A stretch of DNA of 36,398 nucleotides from Limosilactobacillus sp. Its GTDB lineage: Bacteria; Bacillota; Bacilli; Lactobacillales; Lactobacillaceae. Positions 9,408 to 16,818 of the stretch are shown piece after piece. The stretch's first letter is position 1. Every line of letters begins with the position of its first letter. The stretch covers positions 1 through 36,398 of the forward strand of contig NZ_JALCQI010000013.1 of NCBI RefSeq assembly GCF_022651205.1. The letters run 5' to 3'. The position numbers and the translations under genes were made by a program. The notes beneath the pieces were generated by a model, which saw nothing but the letters and a program-made list of their open reading frames with translations, was not told the DNA's origin and did no database searches.

Positions 9408-9512
9408 TTTGCTAATATTAGCTTAACAATTCTGTAAACATTTCGTTTTATAATATCAGTTAGTGTAGAATTATGATATAAGATTATTTCGACAAACTAT
9501 GGGGGAAGATTG

Positions 9513-11657
9513 ATGAATAAAAATCTTGTGAAAATAACGACAGTTGCGGCACTGACCACCGCAATAGGGATTGGGATTGCTGAAAATAATGTTCTCGCTG
9601 ATACACAAACAACCGATTCCGCGACAAGTGTTAATTCTGATAATGTTAATAGTAATCAGCCCATTGTCAGTAATGTTGCTCAGCAGCAAGCTTCAGCGAC
9701 AACTGCAGCACTTTATTCGGCCAATTTAAATACACAGAGTACCCAGTACGTAAACTTCTCACAAGGGTATACTCTTGATAAATTAAGGGGTATTTCTAAC
9801 TCTACTGAAGCAAATGATTTTCAGCAGACAACAATTAGCGGGTTGAGTATGAATAATTACCAATCAGACAGTGTTGCCGCTAAAGAATATGTAAATGTTA
9901 ATAACCTAAGTCCTGAACAAACGATCCAAATGAATCAGTATGGAGTAGGCTTAGTAAATCAAATTAGAAGTGAGTTTGGCTTGGAGCCTTTTCAATTAAA
10001 TGACGAAACGATAGATCAGGTTCGGTCAATGGCGTTGGAATATCAAAATAAGAATGAATCATTAATGAATGGTCATTGGCATGATCCAGAAATTCTTAAC
10101 AATCATAGTGAAAATATTGCTGCCCAACAAATTTATAATGATAATATAAATGGTTTAGCTGTTCGTCCTTTTGCAAGTGCTAAAGGGAATGAGTTTATCA
10201 ATAATAATGCTATTCCTGTATTTAGTGTAACTACAATGGATGATTTAAGAGCACTAATTTACTATGGTGTAATGGGAATGCTCTTTAATGATGCTTCAGA
10301 TAATTTTGGTCATGCACAAAATTTTTTGACTAATCCACAAAGAATTAATACGCTTGGGATCTACCCATCCATTACTAAATCAGTTGGTACGGGAACTTAT
10401 AGTGATGGTTCGACATTTAATTTTAATTTGTTAAATGTTGATATGCATTTTATCTGGGCTGAAGGTGATAATAATTCTAGTACTGCTGAAGAATATAACA
10501 CTCCTGGCTGGCATTTAATTGATAATGAATGGCGACATTTTGATCAGGCTGGACTATTAGAGTTAGGTTGGAAGTGGATCAACGGTAATTGGTATTACCT
10601 AGAACCGACAACTGGTAATATGCAAACTGGTTTGAAGAATGTTAATGGCAATGTGTACTACTTAAACAATAGTGGTGCGATGGTAACTGGTTGGCAAAGG
10701 GTAAATAATAATTGGTATTATTTCCAAAATAATGGTGCTGTGTTGACTGGCTGGCAATTCATTAACGGCCACTGGTATTACTTTACTAGTCAGGGGGTTG
10801 CAGAGACAAACTGGCAGTGGATTGGGAACCATAAGTATTATTTTGATTTAGATAATGCATGGGCATTGACCAATTGGCAAAATTTGAGCGGTAATTGGTA
10901 TTACTTTGATTTAAACAATGCTTGGATGGATACGAATTGGCAATGGATTGATAATAATTGGTTCTACTTTAGCCCTAGTTATGGCCAAATGATGACGGGA
11001 TTACAAACGGTTGAAAATAGTTTATACTTCTTAAATACGCAACATGATGGCAATTATGGGGCTATGCGGTCTGGTTGGTGGAATATTAATAATAACTGGT
11101 ATTTCTTCTATAATAATGGAGCTGCAGCAAAGGGATGGTTCCGGTCTGGTGCAGGAAACTGGTACTACTTTGGTAACGATGGTAAAGCGTTGACAGGTTG
11201 GCAAAAGATCAACGGGCATGGTTATTACTTTGATACTGTTAATGCCTGGGCAGTACGTGGATTTCAGTTGATTGATAACAGTTGGTATTACTTCGATCCA
11301 GTAAATACTTGGCAGAATAGTGGCTGGCAATTTATTGGTAATAACTGGTTCTATATGAACTCAACGACTGGCCAAATGGAGAGTGGGTTGCAAACGGTTA
11401 ACGGAAAGGTATATTTCTTAACCACTCAACATAACGGTTTGTTTGGAGCAATGACTACTGGTTGGCAAAAAGTTAATGGAAAATGGTATTACTTTGACGC
11501 TAGTGGCTCAGCATTAATCGGCTGGCAAAAGATTAATGGTCACTACTACCACTTTAAGAATAATGGTGAAGCGGATACTGGGGATGTTTACTTAACCAAT
11601 AACGGACAAAGTAAGCTTTACCATTTTGATGAGCAAAATGCATGGTTAACTGAATAA
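9513..11657 (+). CDS. Secreted SEC10/PgrA-like (CAP-related) protein with GW/YYF repeats
   Basis: A 714-aa protein. The ATG at 9513 follows GGGGGAAG and starts a signal peptide with cleavage after VLA (29). Residues ~130-325 resemble the SEC10/PgrA surface-exclusion domain (TIGR04320), a CAP-superfamily relative: V-N-Q-I-R-S-E-F-G, GHWHDPE, S-E-N-I-A-A, T-M-D-D-L-R-A-L-I-Y-Y-G-V-M-G-M-L-F-N-D and F-G-H-A-Q-N-F-L. The rest (~330-714) is about 17 GW/YYF repeats. No LPXTG is present, so attachment is likely through the repeats. SEC10/PgrA proteins were named from plasmid surface exclusion; in lactobacilli their role is unknown, and no conjugation genes are nearby. TATAAT at 9449-9454 is a plausible -10, without a clear -35. 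Confidence 0.85.
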   Translation: MNKNLVKITTVAALTTAIGIGIAENNVLADTQTTDSATSVNSDNVNSNQPIVSNVAQQQASATTAALYSANLNTQSTQYVNFSQGYTLDKLRGISNSTEANDFQQTTISGLSMNNYQSDSVAAKEYVNVNNLSPEQTIQMNQYGVGLVNQIRSEFGLEPFQLNDETIDQVRSMALEYQNKNESLMNGHWHDPEILNNHSENIAAQQIYNDNINGLAVRPFASAKGNEFINNNAIPVFSVTTMDDLRALIYYGVMGMLFNDASDNFGHAQNFLTNPQRINTLGIYPSITKSVGTGTYSDGSTFNFNLLNVDMHFIWAEGDNNSSTAEEYNTPGWHLIDNEWRHFDQAGLLELGWKWINGNWYYLEPTTGNMQTGLKNVNGNVYYLNNSGAMVTGWQRVNNNWYYFQNNGAVLTGWQFINGHWYYFTSQGVAETNWQWIGNHKYYFDLDNAWALTNWQNLSGNWYYFDLNNAWMDTNWQWIDNNWFYFSPSYGQMMTGLQTVENSLYFLNTQHDGNYGAMRSGWWNINNNWYFFYNNGAAAKGWFRSGAGNWYYFGNDGKALTGWQKINGHGYYFDTVNAWAVRGFQLIDNSWYYFDPVNTWQNSGWQFIGNNWFYMNSTTGQMESGLQTVNGKVYFLTTQHNGLFGAMTTGWQKVNGKWYYFDASGSALIGWQKINGHYYHFKNNGEADTGDVYLTNNGQSKLYHFDEQNAWLTE

Positions 11658-11666
11658 GTTGATTAA

Positions 11667-11696
11667 GAAAGGTTGGCGTTGAGTCAGCCTTTTTGT
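11667..11696 (+). terminator. Rho-independent terminator
   Basis: AAAGGTTGGC (11668-11677) pairs with GTCAGCCTTT (11683-11692) through some G-T pairs, followed by Ts. Confidence 0.75.
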
Positions 11697-11702
11697 GTTA
11701 GC

Positions 11703-11731
11703 TTGTTAGCTAAATAATTAAGTGCTAAAAT
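11703..11731 (+). promoter_or_regulatory. Promoter with extended -10
   Basis: TTGTTA (11703-11708), a 17-base spacer and TAAAAT (11726-11731) preceded by TGC. It drives the TTG-initiated repeat protein gene that begins at 11768. Confidence 0.7.
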
Positions 11732-11767
11732 GAAACCGTATTTTGTTACTTTTGGGGAGGAATAATC

Positions 11768-12976
11768 TTGAAAAAGAAATTATGGTTGGCTTCAACCACT
11801 GTTTTAGCAGGATTAGCGCTTGGAATTACTAGTGTTAGTGCTGATACTAATGTAAGTACAAATAGTAGCAATATGAATAGTACTACTGTTGCTACTACTA
11901 ATAATGTAAATACAGATAGTAGTGCTGTATCGACTCAAGTAAGTAATAGTGATGCAGCAGTTACGAGTGCTTCTGCTGATACTAGTGCACAAGGTAGTAA
12001 TGTTGCAAGTGAACAACAAACTACGACTGTTGCTCAGTCTGTCACAGCCACTACCAGTCAAGCACGAGCAGATTGGTACTCTGGTTATTCAACTGGCTGG
12101 CAATCAAGTCGGAATTATGATGGTACCTATGATTGGACTTATCGTAAGACTGATGGTACGCGAGCAGAAAGTGAATGGCTATTAATCAATGGTTCCTGGT
12201 ACTATTTTGATGGTTTAGGTGAGATGTCAGCTAACGGATGGCATAGTGCTCCATGGCATGGGCAATATAACGAATATTATTTTGATGTTAATGGCCACTA
12301 CGTAACAAATAGTTGGCATTCATATAATAATGGCAAATATGCATATCCAGAATATACATGGTCATATTCCAAGTCTGATGGCACACGAGCAGAAAGTGAA
12401 TGGTTATGGATCAATGGTGCTTGGTACTATTTTGACGGTGCAGGTGACATGGTTGCTAATGGATGGCATGGTGCTCCATGGTATGGGCAATATAACGAAT
12501 ATTATTTTGATGTTAATGGCCACTACGTAACAAATAGTTGGCATTCATATAATAATGGCAAATATGCATATCCAGAATATACATGGTCATATTCCAAGTC
12601 TGATGGCACACGAGCAGAAAGTGAATGGTTATGGATTAATGGTGCTTGGTACTATTTTGACGGTGCAGGTGATATGGTAGCTAATGGCTGGCATGGTGCT
12701 TCGTGGAATGATCAATACAATGAATATTACTTTGATGTAAACGGCCACTATGTAACAAATTGCTGGCATTCATTCAGTAATGGCCATAACCAATATCCAA
12801 CCTGGTCGTATTCTAAAGCAGATGGTACTAGGGCCGAGAATGAATGGTTATGGATCAATGGTGCTTGGTACTATTTTGATGGTGCAGGTGATATGGTAGC
12901 TAATGGCTGGCATTATGCTCCGTGGAATGGTGAATACAGGGAATATTACTTTGATGTTAATGGTCATTGCCTATAA
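11768..12976 (+). CDS. Secreted repeat-only protein with 75-residue WYYFDG/EYYFDVNGHY repeats
   Basis: A 402-aa secreted protein. The TTG at 11768 is taken as start because GGGGAGG ends seven bases upstream and MKKKLWLASTTVLAGLALGITSVSA follows directly as a signal peptide (cleavage ~25). After a Ser/Thr/Asn linker (26-97) the protein consists of about four long units with the pattern SDGTRAESEWLWINGAWYYFDGAGDM...GWHGAPW...NEYYFDVNGHY. These are a longer variant of the GW/YYF repeat carried by the upstream genes. No catalytic domain is visible and the protein ends right after the last unit, so it may be a pure binding protein (glucan or wall polymer) or the remainder of a larger one. Units two and three are nearly identical in DNA. 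Confidence 0.85.
   Translation: MKKKLWLASTTVLAGLALGITSVSADTNVSTNSSNMNSTTVATTNNVNTDSSAVSTQVSNSDAAVTSASADTSAQGSNVASEQQTTTVAQSVTATTSQARADWYSGYSTGWQSSRNYDGTYDWTYRKTDGTRAESEWLLINGSWYYFDGLGEMSANGWHSAPWHGQYNEYYFDVNGHYVTNSWHSYNNGKYAYPEYTWSYSKSDGTRAESEWLWINGAWYYFDGAGDMVANGWHGAPWYGQYNEYYFDVNGHYVTNSWHSYNNGKYAYPEYTWSYSKSDGTRAESEWLWINGAWYYFDGAGDMVANGWHGASWNDQYNEYYFDVNGHYVTNCWHSFSNGHNQYPTWSYSKADGTRAENEWLWINGAWYYFDGAGDMVANGWHYAPWNGEYREYYFDVNGHCL
12258..12707 (+). repeat. 225-bp tandem duplication inside the repeat-only gene
   Basis: Two copies lie exactly 225 bases (75 codons) apart. The stretch starting at 12261 matches that starting at 12486 without difference for about 150 bases, then shows only scattered third-position changes. 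A more diverged unit follows from about 12711. Confidence 0.9.
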
Positions 12977-13019: not shown

Positions 13020-13057
13020 TTATACAATCAAATAAAAAGAGACTTGGTGAATTGAAA

Positions 13058-13570
13058 ATGGATTCAGGTATTATTTCGGCTTGGGCTGATGTGGCTTCGG
13101 CTATTTTGGCTTTTTTTGCTTTATTGGCAGCTTGCTATGCATGTTACGTAAGTAGAAAAGATTTAAAATATCGGTTAGATCCTAAGCCGAAACTTCATTT
13201 TTGTGTTGCATATGATTGTGAGGATGGGAAAGATGGTTATCAGTTAGTTTGTATTAATTCAGGTGATATGGCAGCAATTATTAATATTAAGGAGCCAAAG
13301 CCAAAAAGAACAATAAAATATATTCACAGAAATTGGCCATCAGCAAAGTTTGATAATGAAGCTATAAATAGCATTATTGTCGATCCACATACTAAAAAGA
13401 AAATTTTCTTTGTTGATAAATCATTTTGTAATAAAGTAATTGGTGAAAAACGAAAAAATATAAATTACTGTTTGAAAATTTTTGAAGCTATTAATAAGAT
13501 TGAAAGTGATCTTATTTTTGACTTTAATAAGAATGAAAATATTACTGTAAAAGAAGTACAGCATGTTTGA
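13058..13570 (+). CDS. Small membrane-anchored protein, unrecognised
   Basis: A 170-aa protein with one N-terminal membrane helix (residues ~8-30, V-A-S-A-I-L-A-F-F-A-L-L-A-A-C-Y) and a charged soluble part, probably cytoplasmic. The ATG at 13058 sits seven bases after GGTGA; a TTG at 13052 would be too close to it. The soluble part has strand-like segments (L-H-F-C-V-A-Y-D, Y-Q-L-V-C-I-N-S-G-D) and a Lys-rich middle. Similar short N-terminal-helix proteins are often single hypothetical genes in accessory regions. I do not recognise a family. Base composition is more A-rich than that of the preceding repeat genes. Confidence 0.75.
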   Translation: MDSGIISAWADVASAILAFFALLAACYACYVSRKDLKYRLDPKPKLHFCVAYDCEDGKDGYQLVCINSGDMAAIINIKEPKPKRTIKYIHRNWPSAKFDNEAINSIIVDPHTKKKIFFVDKSFCNKVIGEKRKNINYCLKIFEAINKIESDLIFDFNKNENITVKEVQHV

Positions 13571-14283: not shown

Positions 14284-14436
14284 TATTTAGCAATTAAAAT
14301 GGTTGATTTTGCAATTTTTGTAATGAAGTGCAATGAAAGGGTAATAAAGGAGACTTAATTAATATTACTTGGCTTTTTGTTGATTAAAATTATATAGATA
14401 TTGCTGAAGCTGTAGTGAGTACCACAAAGAACACAT

Positions 14437-14478
14437 AAGCCTGTAATACCAGCGTATTGTTGGCATTACAGGCTTTTG
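14437..14478 (+). terminator. Orphan terminator-like hairpin containing CCTGTAAT
   Basis: AAGCCTGTAAT (14437-14447) pairs perfectly with ATTACAGGCTT (14465-14475), then TT. No plus-strand gene ends upstream of it. Its stem resembles the hairpin at 16760-16806. Confidence 0.6.
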
Positions 14479-14518
14479 GTTACTTAAATAGCGCTGTTTT
14501 AACTTTAGTGAACTGAAT

Positions 14519-14572
14519 TATCTTAATCATATGCAGAATATCTTGATCATTTTGTGAATTTTGATTAAGATA
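14519..14572. repeat. Three copies of an 11-mer, TATCTTRATCA
   Basis: TATCTTAATCA (14519-14529), TATCTTGATCA (14539-14549, exactly 20 bases later) and the inverted copy TGATTAAGATA (14562-14572). Spacing of two helical turns and the mixed orientation suggest a protein-binding array. Confidence 0.7.
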
Positions 14573-14590
14573 CTTTACTTTTTAACGTTC

Positions 14591-14633
14591 TTGCTACTAA
14601 TTAGTAGTAAAGGCATGACCGTCATGCTATAAT
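14591..14633 (+). promoter_or_regulatory. Toxin-antitoxin promoter with two palindromic operators
   Basis: The extended -10 TGC-TATAAT (14625-14633) has a weak -35 region. A perfect palindrome CTACTAATTAGTAG (14594-14607, extendable to 14591-14610) covers the -35 position. A second, GCATGAC-C-GTCATGC (14613-14627), fills the spacer. This layout is typical of autoregulated toxin-antitoxin operons whose HTH antitoxin represses its own promoter. Confidence 0.75.
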
Positions 14634-14664
14634 GATATAGCAATAAAATACTGGGAGGATTGTA

Positions 14665-14955
14665 ATGGAGGTTGGTGAGGCATTAGCAAGATTAAAATTT
14701 CTTGTAAATCATGATCGATTTTATATGGTTCAACGACAAAGTAGAATGGCAATGCCGGTTTCTGTAACTTTAGCTAAGGAAATTGTTAGACAGTTATCCA
14801 TTAACGATTTTGTCAAACATGAACCTAATCGAAATAATCCATTACAATTTGTTTGGGTATTTAAAACTAGTGATGGACAGACTTATTACATTAAGTTTGT
14901 TTTTACTGAGAACAACCAGAAAGTGGTACTTATCAGTTTTCATCTTGATTATTAA
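14665..14955 (+). CDS. MqsR-like toxin (putative mRNA interferase), first gene of the module
   Basis: A 96-aa protein with the size and pattern of MqsR/RelE-fold toxins. Compared from memory with E. coli MqsR it shares the early helix (A-L-A-R-L-K-F-L-V), L-S-x-x-D-F, and the C-terminal strand pair Y-Y-I-K-F-V-F...V-V-L-I-S-F-H where MqsR has V-Y-L-K-I-T-V...V-L-I-V-S-F-K. The aligned basic and aromatic residues fit a ribonuclease active site, but activity is inferred. ATG 14665 has GGGAGG six bases upstream. The antitoxin ATG lies 14 bases after the stop, with a very strong AAAGGAGGAGG site between them, as expected if the antitoxin must be made in excess. Toxin-first order matches mqsRA. 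Confidence 0.75.
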   Translation: MEVGEALARLKFLVNHDRFYMVQRQSRMAMPVSVTLAKEIVRQLSINDFVKHEPNRNNPLQFVWVFKTSDGQTYYIKFVFTENNQKVVLISFHLDY

Positions 14956-14969
14956 AGGAGGAGGTTTAT

Positions 14970-15893
14970 ATGGCTTACCAAAAGAACTTCACAACTACTT
15001 ATACCATTAACGGACATGAGTACACGGTAACGGCGCCGGCTCTTTTTGACAGTAACACCAATGAACTGATTCCGGATAAAGAGCTGGATGATCAAGCTGC
15101 CGAAATAGCTCGTCAACAATACCGTGATGAGATGGGATTACTGTCACCACAAGAATTAAAGCAATATCGTGCTAAGGTAGGACTATCTCAACGTAATTTA
15201 GCTGAATTAACTGGGTTAAGTCCAAATACAATAGCACTTTACGAGGCTGGTGCATTTCCTACCAAAGCCAATAATAGACTGCTAAAATCACTCATTGCTA
15301 ATGATGATGTGCTTCAACAATATATTGCTGATGAAAAGAATGATTACTCTGATGAATTAATTTCGAAGGTGAACTCTTATCTAAGTAATAATGATGGTGT
15401 GGTTGAGTCACAAAAGGAGAAACCTAAGTTTACGGCCGTACAATTAGCTAATTGGTTACGAGTTGAAAACTATTTTGAAAGGGATAGCGATTTAAATATT
15501 GACCCTTTGACACAAATGAAGGTCATTAAACTGCTCTACATTGCATATGGGAGATTTTTAGCCGCAACCAGAAATAAATTATTTTCTTCAACAATCGTTC
15601 ACTTCCAATATGGCCCATTGATAACGGAAGTACATTCTAAATTTAATGGTCAGAGTGTTCTGGACATTGATAAACCAGATAAAGAAGCGATGGATGACTA
15701 CAACCTAGTTTCACAGGATGGCGAGATTGCGGACCTTCTAAGTAAAGTGAATGAAGATTACATTAACTACAACGCTGCTCGATTAAGCAAGCAAACTCAT
15801 CGGCCAGGTTCACCGTGGGACTTAACTCCAGATCGGGAAGTAATTAAGGATCAGTTGATTTTTGATACGTTTAAGCGAGGGATAGAAGAATAA
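14970..15893 (+). CDS. Fused antitoxin: MqsA-type HTH domain plus Panacea (DUF4065/SocA-like) domain
   Basis: A 307-aa protein. Residues ~1-50 form a strand-rich lead (T-I-N-G-H-E-Y-T-V-T-A-P-A). Residues ~50-110 hold an XRE/MqsA-like HTH: LSPQELKQYRAKVGLSQRNLAELTGLSPNTIALYEAGAFPT, here split as L-S-P-Q-E-L-K-Q-Y-R and G-L-S-Q-R-N-L-A-E-L-T. Residues ~150-305 are a Panacea/DUF4065 domain: L-T-Q-M-K-V-I-K-L-L-Y-I-A-Y-G, F-Q-Y-G-P-L-I-T-E-V-H, and a terminal G-S-P-W-D-L-T...I-F-D-T-F. The Panacea domain is known to neutralise diverse toxins in PanTA systems; HTH-Panacea fusions also bind their promoter. MqsA normally starts with a zinc-binding CxxC domain, but this protein contains no cysteine at all, so that part is replaced or degenerate. 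Confidence 0.85.
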   Translation: MAYQKNFTTTYTINGHEYTVTAPALFDSNTNELIPDKELDDQAAEIARQQYRDEMGLLSPQELKQYRAKVGLSQRNLAELTGLSPNTIALYEAGAFPTKANNRLLKSLIANDDVLQQYIADEKNDYSDELISKVNSYLSNNDGVVESQKEKPKFTAVQLANWLRVENYFERDSDLNIDPLTQMKVIKLLYIAYGRFLAATRNKLFSSTIVHFQYGPLITEVHSKFNGQSVLDIDKPDKEAMDDYNLVSQDGEIADLLSKVNEDYINYNAARLSKQTHRPGSPWDLTPDREVIKDQLIFDTFKRGIEE

Positions 15894-15920
15894 AGTTCGT
15901 ATAGTAAAAAGGAAGTATTG

Positions 15921-16571
15921 GTGTTGAAATATTTTACTAAATTACGTCAAGTTGTAATGGAAATGGAGAAAGAAGAAGTTGTTATTTATCCTTGCTACGT
16001 TAGTTATAAAAGTACGAAGTATATTGTATTGATTGAGCGAATTCTTGACGATACAAATAATTCCGATATTGCAAAACTAATTTTTATGGATGCAGATAAT
16101 TTATCTGATAAGCTAGCAGTTATGGTAAATGATTATAGTTTTTCTTCAGCTACTACTAAGGAGATCAGAATATTTTTTAATATTCCATATGAGGATGGTA
16201 AACTTGGTACGCTTTTTCAGAATCTTTATATGAGTTTAAGCAGTCAATTTCCAAACCACTATTTTCCAAACTATAAGAACCAAAAGTCACTTCGACAAAT
16301 TGTTCTTGATGAAATTGGTAGCAATTCTCCTGCTAATGCTGACAAAAAGTACTGTCATCATATTAAACGCCTTGGTGTAACTTCAAACGGTAAGCATATG
16401 AGGAGAAGTGCTTATAACAGTCAAAAAACTCAACTACTCCGTCCATCTCTATTCAATTATTTTTGTAAAGATAAATCGTTGAGTTTCTGTTTTTATGATG
16501 ACCCAAATATGGAGCGAAACGATACGCAAATTATTAATTATTTTTCTAGTAACAAGGGAATTAATGTGTAA
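15921..16571 (+). CDS. Third gene of the toxin-antitoxin operon, unrecognised (possibly DUF6037-like)
   Basis: A 216-aa protein starting 27 bases after the antitoxin stop. GTG 15921 is chosen because AGGA ends about seven bases upstream; TTG codons at 15918 and 15924 are alternatives. It has no signal or membrane segment. An N-terminal half of helix then strands (Y-P-C-Y-V-S-Y-K-S-T-K-Y-I-V-L-I-E) is followed by a basic C-terminal half with a notable block Y-C-H-H-I-K-R, R-R-S-A-Y-N-S-Q-K-T-Q-L-L-R-P-S-L-F and L-S-F-C-F-Y-D-D-P. The block of Arg, Asn and Lys suggests a ligand- or nucleic-acid-binding site. From memory it resembles proteins called DUF6037, but this is unverified. No promoter or terminator is seen before it, so it is probably cotranscribed with the toxin and antitoxin. 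Confidence 0.75.
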   Translation: MLKYFTKLRQVVMEMEKEEVVIYPCYVSYKSTKYIVLIERILDDTNNSDIAKLIFMDADNLSDKLAVMVNDYSFSSATTKEIRIFFNIPYEDGKLGTLFQNLYMSLSSQFPNHYFPNYKNQKSLRQIVLDEIGSNSPANADKKYCHHIKRLGVTSNGKHMRRSAYNSQKTQLLRPSLFNYFCKDKSLSFCFYDDPNMERNDTQIINYFSSNKGINV

Positions 16572-16759
16572 TACTTAGTATTAATTAAGATAGCTTAAAT
16601 GTTATATTTAGTAGTAAATTATTTACAACTAATATATTGTCACATCAGCTTTTGACCATAGTTTCTGAATACACTTTTAACACGTTTAGAGTCTAATACT
16701 GTCATACCAATACCTCAGCTAATACAAAACAGCGACTCTAGTCAGCATTTATAACCATG

Positions 16760-16806
16760 AAAAGGCCTGTAATAGCAATAATCAACGTTGCTATTACAGG
16801 CCTTTT
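16760..16806 (+). terminator. Very strong terminator hairpin with a 19-bp perfect stem
   Basis: Bases 16760-16778 (AAAAGGCCTGTAATAGCAA) pair perfectly with 16788-16806, with a 9-base loop and a T-rich tail. It probably ends the toxin-antitoxin operon. The CCTGTAATA core is shared with the orphan hairpin at 14437-14478. Confidence 0.85.
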
Positions 16807-16818
16807 GTATACTATTTT

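Follow-up and report, generated by a model that had tools for sequence, protein, structure and literature searches.

A predicted zinc-free MqsR:PanA operon with a probable cargo gene and an end repeat with a short tRNA-like core in Limosilactobacillus

The window analysed here is a 36,398-nucleotide (nt) stretch of Limosilactobacillus sp. (contig NZ_JALCQI010000013.1, assembly GCF_022651205.1). It contains three same-strand open reading frames which encode a putative MqsR toxin, a Panacea-domain antitoxin (PanA) and a DUF6037 protein, set between a partial and a full copy of a repeat. An earlier note on this DNA described the genes as a compact three-gene module. The source assembly comprises 1.53 Mb in 42 contigs and is 86.8% complete. 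The locus has two long matches to Limosilactobacillus vaginalis DSM 5837 (98-99% identity over 13.5-17.5 kb), and longer-stretch matches show 96-99% identity; the source genome is therefore taken as a close relative. All three module proteins are 99-100% identical to their L. vaginalis counterparts. The features are:

14410..14481, + strand: incomplete copy of the end repeat on the upstream side, spanning model positions 112-185, with a hairpin at 14439-14473; found by nhmmer
14594..14607, no strand: candidate operator palindrome CTACTAATTAGTAG, 57 nt upstream of mqsR; conserved in relatives
14613..14642, no strand: two further palindromes around a -10-like hexamer at 14628-14633; palindrome scan, relatives
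14665..14955, + strand: mqsR, predicted RNase-type toxin, 96 amino acids (aa); PF15723 match
14970..15893, + strand: panA, predicted antitoxin, 307 aa, no cysteine; HTH_3 and SocA_Panacea matches; zinc-less MqsA-like N domain at about 1-57, helix-turn-helix (HTH) at about 58-121, Panacea at about 155-304, from profiles and an AlphaFold2 (AF2) model
15924..16571, + strand: DUF6037 gene (probable cargo), 215 aa, TTG start, 30.7% GC; PF19503 match, AF2 model
16639..16809, + strand: complete, att-like copy of the end repeat, with a terminator-like hairpin at its end (16760-16806); repeat comparison, folding
16735..16748, + strand: core ACTCTAGTCAGCAT, like the 3' end of tRNA-Thr; match to the tRNA-Thr(AGT) of genome G262

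The MqsR:PanA pair

The three genes are as tightly spaced as first described: the gap is 14 nt between mqsR and panA, and 24 or 30 nt between panA and the third gene, depending on the start codon. The third protein has 215 aa from the TTG at 15924 or 217 aa from the TTG at 15918, close to the 216 aa given before. The strong ribosome site reported upstream of panA is present (AAAGGAGGAGG).

The first protein matches Pfam PF15723 (MqsR_toxin) at 33.4 bits, above the curated cut-off of 26.2. By family it is a putative MqsR-type RNase toxin, as the earlier note had supposed. Of the four residues needed for toxicity of E. coli MqsR, K56 and Y81 align with K51 and Y75 here; K96 is replaced by H93 and Q68 falls in a gap, in an alignment of sequences too distant for it to be firm. 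A query against PDB sequences retrieved no MqsR.

PanA passes the Pfam cut-offs of both HTH_3 and SocA_Panacea, so both domains named previously are present. The Panacea domain (PF13274) scores 43.0 bits against a cut-off of 25.7, and the toxin gene lies well within the <100 nt used to define PanAT loci. PanA misses the MqsA profiles PF15731 and TIGR03830 (21.8 bits against 30; 59.9 against 61.8). Its AF2 model resembles the N domain and HTH of E. coli MqsA, with middling scores. PanA seems to keep an MqsA-like N-terminal domain minus its cysteines.

PanA has no cysteine at all, as the earlier note had observed, and the four-cysteine zinc site of MqsA is absent. E. coli MqsA Cys37 and Cys40 align with D27 and T30, while Cys3 and Cys6 fall before the start of PanA. 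PanA matches of any kind occur in 122 of 397 genomes, many spanning only part of the protein. Cysteines were counted in 30 listed PanA loci plus one plasmid and one phage locus, taking 290-335 aa as full length. None of the 19 full-length MqsR-linked proteins, window included, has a cysteine in its first 60 residues; 4 of 13 other PanA (short, broken or without MqsR) do. The latter group includes L051, a protein of 328 aa whose first 60 residues are free of cysteine and beside which no MqsR was found. An MqsR match lies in the locus of each of the 19 full-length proteins (tblastn E 1e-3; that of L026 is partial, at a contig end). A scan of viral contigs for PanA gave no relative.

Genes 1 and 2 are, by these matches, an MqsR:PanA toxin-antitoxin pair of known kind. 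The pairing, which the earlier note inferred, is already known: MqsR:PanA pairs of Bacillus fungorum and Lactobacillus rossiae have been published and tested as toxin-antitoxin systems (PMC10440598); both those and the pair here combine an MqsR toxin with an HTH-bearing Panacea antitoxin. Nor does PanA seem to be a bare HTH-Panacea fusion, given its apparent MqsA-like domain. In B. fungorum PanA the N-terminal domain alone neutralises, and Panacea is favoured as a sensor (PMC10440598). MqsR-like proteins make up 90 of 1,268 putative Panacea-linked toxins; one MqsR was toxic but unrescued by its PanA (PMC8832971).

A zinc-binding domain is reported for the PanA of B. fungorum (PMC10440598); in contrast, the window PanA has no cysteine. 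E. coli MqsRA (PMC2791442) shares with the window a toxin-first operon and, by prediction, an MqsA-like N domain with HTH, but the window PanA lacks the zinc site and has an added Panacea domain. The pair here is thus a predicted zinc-free variant, which was not found reported in the literature searches made. The four cysteines of E. coli MqsA are called perfectly conserved (PMC2791442), yet the zinc site is gone in 19 of 19 full-length MqsR-linked PanA while pairing and predicted fold persist.

Candidate operator and predicted regulation

The stretch 14594-14642 contains three palindromes with 7-bp arms, where 500 mononucleotide shuffles average 0.25. The first, CTACTAATTAGTAG, is the one widely conserved. 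With at most two mismatches it occurs in 21 of 26 mqsR upstream regions, against 0.08% of 5,200 mononucleotide-shuffled regions; the full tally is 12 exact, three with one mismatch, six with two, two with three, one with four and two with six. This count covers 130 nt upstream at one locus per genome and takes only loci in which the MqsR match begins no later than residue 6 (truncated mqsR genes, among them those of L026, L032 and L099, do not enter); the window and L. vaginalis are both counted. In the 21 good loci the palindrome sits 51-61 nt 5' of the mqsR match and is often extended to GCTACTAATTAGTAGC.

Exact copies are found in Limosilactobacillus, Ligilactobacillus, Pediococcus, Levilactobacillus and Lentilactobacillus loci, and a perfect copy also precedes a 144-aa antitoxin without Panacea (L041). 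The MqsR-PanA pair of a Lactococcus phage has no such operator. In the 1.53 Mb assembly the exact sequence occurs once. The palindrome at 14613-14627 is absent in 6 of 6 relatives checked, L. vaginalis included, and that at 14625-14642 is present in 3 of 6. Of the autoregulatory palindromes proposed earlier, therefore, a conserved one before the operon stands and the other two are not widely shared.

The hexamer TATAAT at 14628-14633 is without a good -35. A consensus scanner listed neither an mqsR promoter nor the final hairpin at 16760-16806. The E. coli MqsRA operator is palindromic, as is the sequence upstream of mqsR here. This candidate operator, which was not found reported in the literature searches made, is now available in precise form.

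The following mechanism can be proposed. MqsR would cut mRNA, and the cysteine-free N domain of PanA would bind and block it. A PanA HTH dimer would repress the operon by binding CTACTAATTAGTAG, which lies in the -35 zone. Panacea would sense the trigger, a role already suggested for it in the literature. Once PanA is lost or triggered, translation would be halted by MqsR; this may protect kin from phage and penalise island loss. The DUF6037 gene is probably transcribed on from the same operon and may have a separate mobile-element function of its own.

End repeat and proposed island units

A model built from four repeat copies, one of them the downstream window copy, detects the upstream copy at E 1.3e-7; this upstream copy is 90% identical to one in Limosilactobacillus rudii over query positions 109-178. 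What was described earlier as a strong final terminator is a strong hairpin: a 186-nt stretch with the hairpin at 16760-16806 folds at -42.8 kcal/mol (z -4.56), and 0 of 200 shuffles fold as well. L. rudii, Lactobacillus sp. 0.1XD8-4 and the window have different third genes followed by the same sequence of about 110 nt plus hairpin.

As a query, the window copy finds the repeat in 4 of 5 genomes, in each case next to the module and nowhere else. An L. rudii copy finds it in 7 of 16 genomes (hand-picked, partly for PanA matches; one filed as Lactobacillus sp.), and the copies in G262, G386 and G197 lie away from an MqsR-PanA pair. None was found in the plasmids and phages searched, and viral contigs gave no relative.

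In the core ACTCTAGTCAGCAT, 13 of 14 bases equal the 3' end of the G262 tRNA-Thr(AGT), where the best of 200 shuffles reaches 10. Among the repeat copies, those with the ending GTCAGCA agree with this tRNA version at 12-13 of 14 bases, and those with the ending GTGAGCA agree with the G386 version at 13 of 14. One G386 copy overlaps the end of a tRNA-Thr(AGT) gene, and another copy follows after 2.7 kb. The copies of G262 and G197 have the same orientation as a tRNA-Thr that lies 11-13 kb and 5 kb upstream of them, respectively. The repeat bracketing the module is probably an att-type border.

Several relatives carry repeat-closed units with defence-type genes. In L. rudii these hold ThsB, PDC-M50A and AlbA, and then MqsR-PanA with a 357-aa gene. 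G262 has a unit with AlbA (scanned) and a TIR gene 98% identical to that of G386; the G386 unit holds this TIR gene (scanned, PADLOC bSEFIR) and an AlbA frame that looks broken. A 402-aa tyrosine recombinase is 96% identical between G386 and L. rudii, and a remnant persists in G262. The L. rudii locus (L174, 4638-15910) reads, in order: recombinase, ThsB-like TIR gene, PDC-M50A, AlbA, repeat, MqsR-PanA-357 aa, repeat, a broken panA and an FRG-domain (PDC-S15) gene. The FRG-domain gene is 93% identical in G262.

The most probable reading, at roughly 0.7, makes the locus an autoregulated MqsR:PanA type II operon followed by a cargo gene unrelated to it, the two together being a remnant unit of a tRNA-Thr-targeted integrative island. 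Its computed basis consists of the families, the fold resemblance, the conserved operator, the non-linkage of DUF6037 described below, the exchangeable slot, the repeat and the short tRNA-like core; toxicity, neutralisation, repression, co-transcription and integration are predictions. tRNA-targeted integrative elements have a tyrosine recombinase and a tRNA-end-like core in their repeats, as do the relatives here, with defence-type cargo. They differ from the present case, in which several direct-orientation units are closed by related ends of about 170-200 nt and the window copy, in a search of the window, has neither recombinase nor tRNA.

Some observations weigh against this reading. Over 18 or 24 nt the tRNA likeness shows no real excess over shuffles, two of the 12/14 core matches are equalled by shuffles and the G197 copy has no match. 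In G262 and G197 the tRNA link is only suggestive because the sequence directly behind tRNA-Thr differs from the repeat. The upstream window copy is partial and degenerate, and within the window nothing resembles the 402-aa recombinase.

A less likely explanation, which nevertheless carries some weight, is that the end repeat is an untranslated 3' region with its terminator, that third genes were swapped by ordinary homologous recombination and that its resemblance to tRNA arose by chance or as a by-product. This would fit the covariation of the repeat hairpin (11 of 29 predicted pairs changed on both sides in four sequences), the absence of a recombinase from the window and a tRNA likeness limited to about 14 nt. 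However, about 110 nt before the hairpin are conserved in sequence while their RNA folding is no better than shuffled (z 0.41); in addition, two tRNA-Thr end versions are matched by two repeat-core versions, and one copy overlaps a real tRNA-Thr gene.

The island reading can be widened to a Limosilactobacillus system targeted to tRNA-Thr(AGT), in which head-to-tail defence units (AlbA plus TIR, Thoeris-type ThsB, MqsR-PanA plus an exchangeable third gene) each have the same att-bearing end and are moved by one tyrosine recombinase, the zinc-free pair is stabilising and DUF6037 is one cargo. We put this forward as a tentative picture, somewhat short of even odds. The literature searches made returned nothing on such an island. 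The end repeat offers a marker for finding further island cargo.

Decay in relatives and the third gene

Decay is common among related loci. The source genome has an orphan panA (contig C8:35337-36257; L052 4335-5258, minus strand) which is intact and 96% identical in protein to the window copy; only the last 37 bp of mqsR remain upstream, and the 300 nt upstream contain no operator (best 5 mismatches). In L. rudii, the homology of the broken second panA starts within one base of the same mqsR point. The panA of G197 is frameshifted and the mqsR of L. portuensis is truncated. In L. portuensis (L099, 5777-5986) a deletion has apparently produced an open reading frame in which the first part of an AlbA-type gene continues into the last part of mqsR; this fusion suggests that an AlbA unit once preceded the pair there, as in L. 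rudii.

Such decay would suit a worn-out, neutral toxin-antitoxin remnant beside a chance neighbour. This is improbable for the window, which has three open genes and a perfect operator, all kept by L. vaginalis. Even the orphan panA differs from the window copy with a nonsynonymous rate (dN) of 0.020 against a synonymous rate (dS) of 0.406, although part of this divergence predates toxin loss.

The third protein matches PF19503 (DUF6037) at 112.3 bits (cut-off 28.8). Its AF2 model has a predicted local distance difference test (pLDDT) score of 91.6; a fold comparison gave no good match, and the literature searches made returned nothing on DUF6037. Phages searched contain none, and viral contigs gave no relative.

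The earlier note counted this gene as a module member, and the neighbourhood comparison does not bear that out; by the note's own criterion, presence of the gene next to the pair in further genomes, the idea fails outside L. vaginalis. Of the 17 other pair loci compared, only that of the near-identical L. vaginalis has DUF6037 behind the pair. This count leaves out the phage, the broken loci L099, L102 and L103, and L029, L030, L034, L040, L041, L045 and L046; no DUF6037 was seen at the omitted loci. The slot behind the pair is taken by different genes in L. rudii and Lactobacillus sp. 0.1XD8-4, again followed by the end repeat. MqsR was found in 0 of 22 other DUF6037 genomes; Panacea occurs in 6 of the 22, either on a different contig or no closer than 244 kb. 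This set omits two below-cut-off genomes (G816, G1018) and keeps one (G325).

Five DUF6037 plasmid regions have no MqsR or SocA-type gene annotated nearby, in plasmid annotation that is incomplete (a sixth record, H24, is not included). In G587 (L104 3728-5389) DUF6037 has an ArdA gene on one side and a TcpE gene on the other, an arrangement like that of a conjugative element; this setting could suit an anti-defence role.

Since linkage is missing in the 22 genomes and limited to 1 of 17 loci, the third gene is not counted as a toxin-system member and is, on this distribution, cargo. A true tripartite system, with DUF6037 as chaperone, second effector or phage sensor, would explain why the gene lies on the same strand 24-30 nt 3' of panA with no terminator seen between and is intact, with 2 differences to L. 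vaginalis in 648 bases, but is very unlikely given this non-linkage, the plasmid regions and the G587 neighbours. The locus shows that exchangeable genes may be carried along behind a toxin-antitoxin pair, a caution against counting every third gene as part of the system. Accessory third genes of PanAT loci have been described; DUF6037 and a repeat-closed slot are not named among them in the available part of that source (PMC8832971).

Three further observations concern the flank upstream of the module. Window positions 14380-14388 are a break point common to other genomes, perhaps an insertion-sequence hot spot; L. portuensis homology ends there, and L. vaginalis has a run of N nearby. At 13052-13570 lies a 172-aa TTG open reading frame (29.5% GC) with one N-terminal membrane stretch, judged by eye, and no good family match; it is possibly another low-GC cargo gene. 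The region 9510-12976 encodes two surface proteins with choline-binding/glucan-binding repeats, the first of which has a SEC10/PgrA domain.
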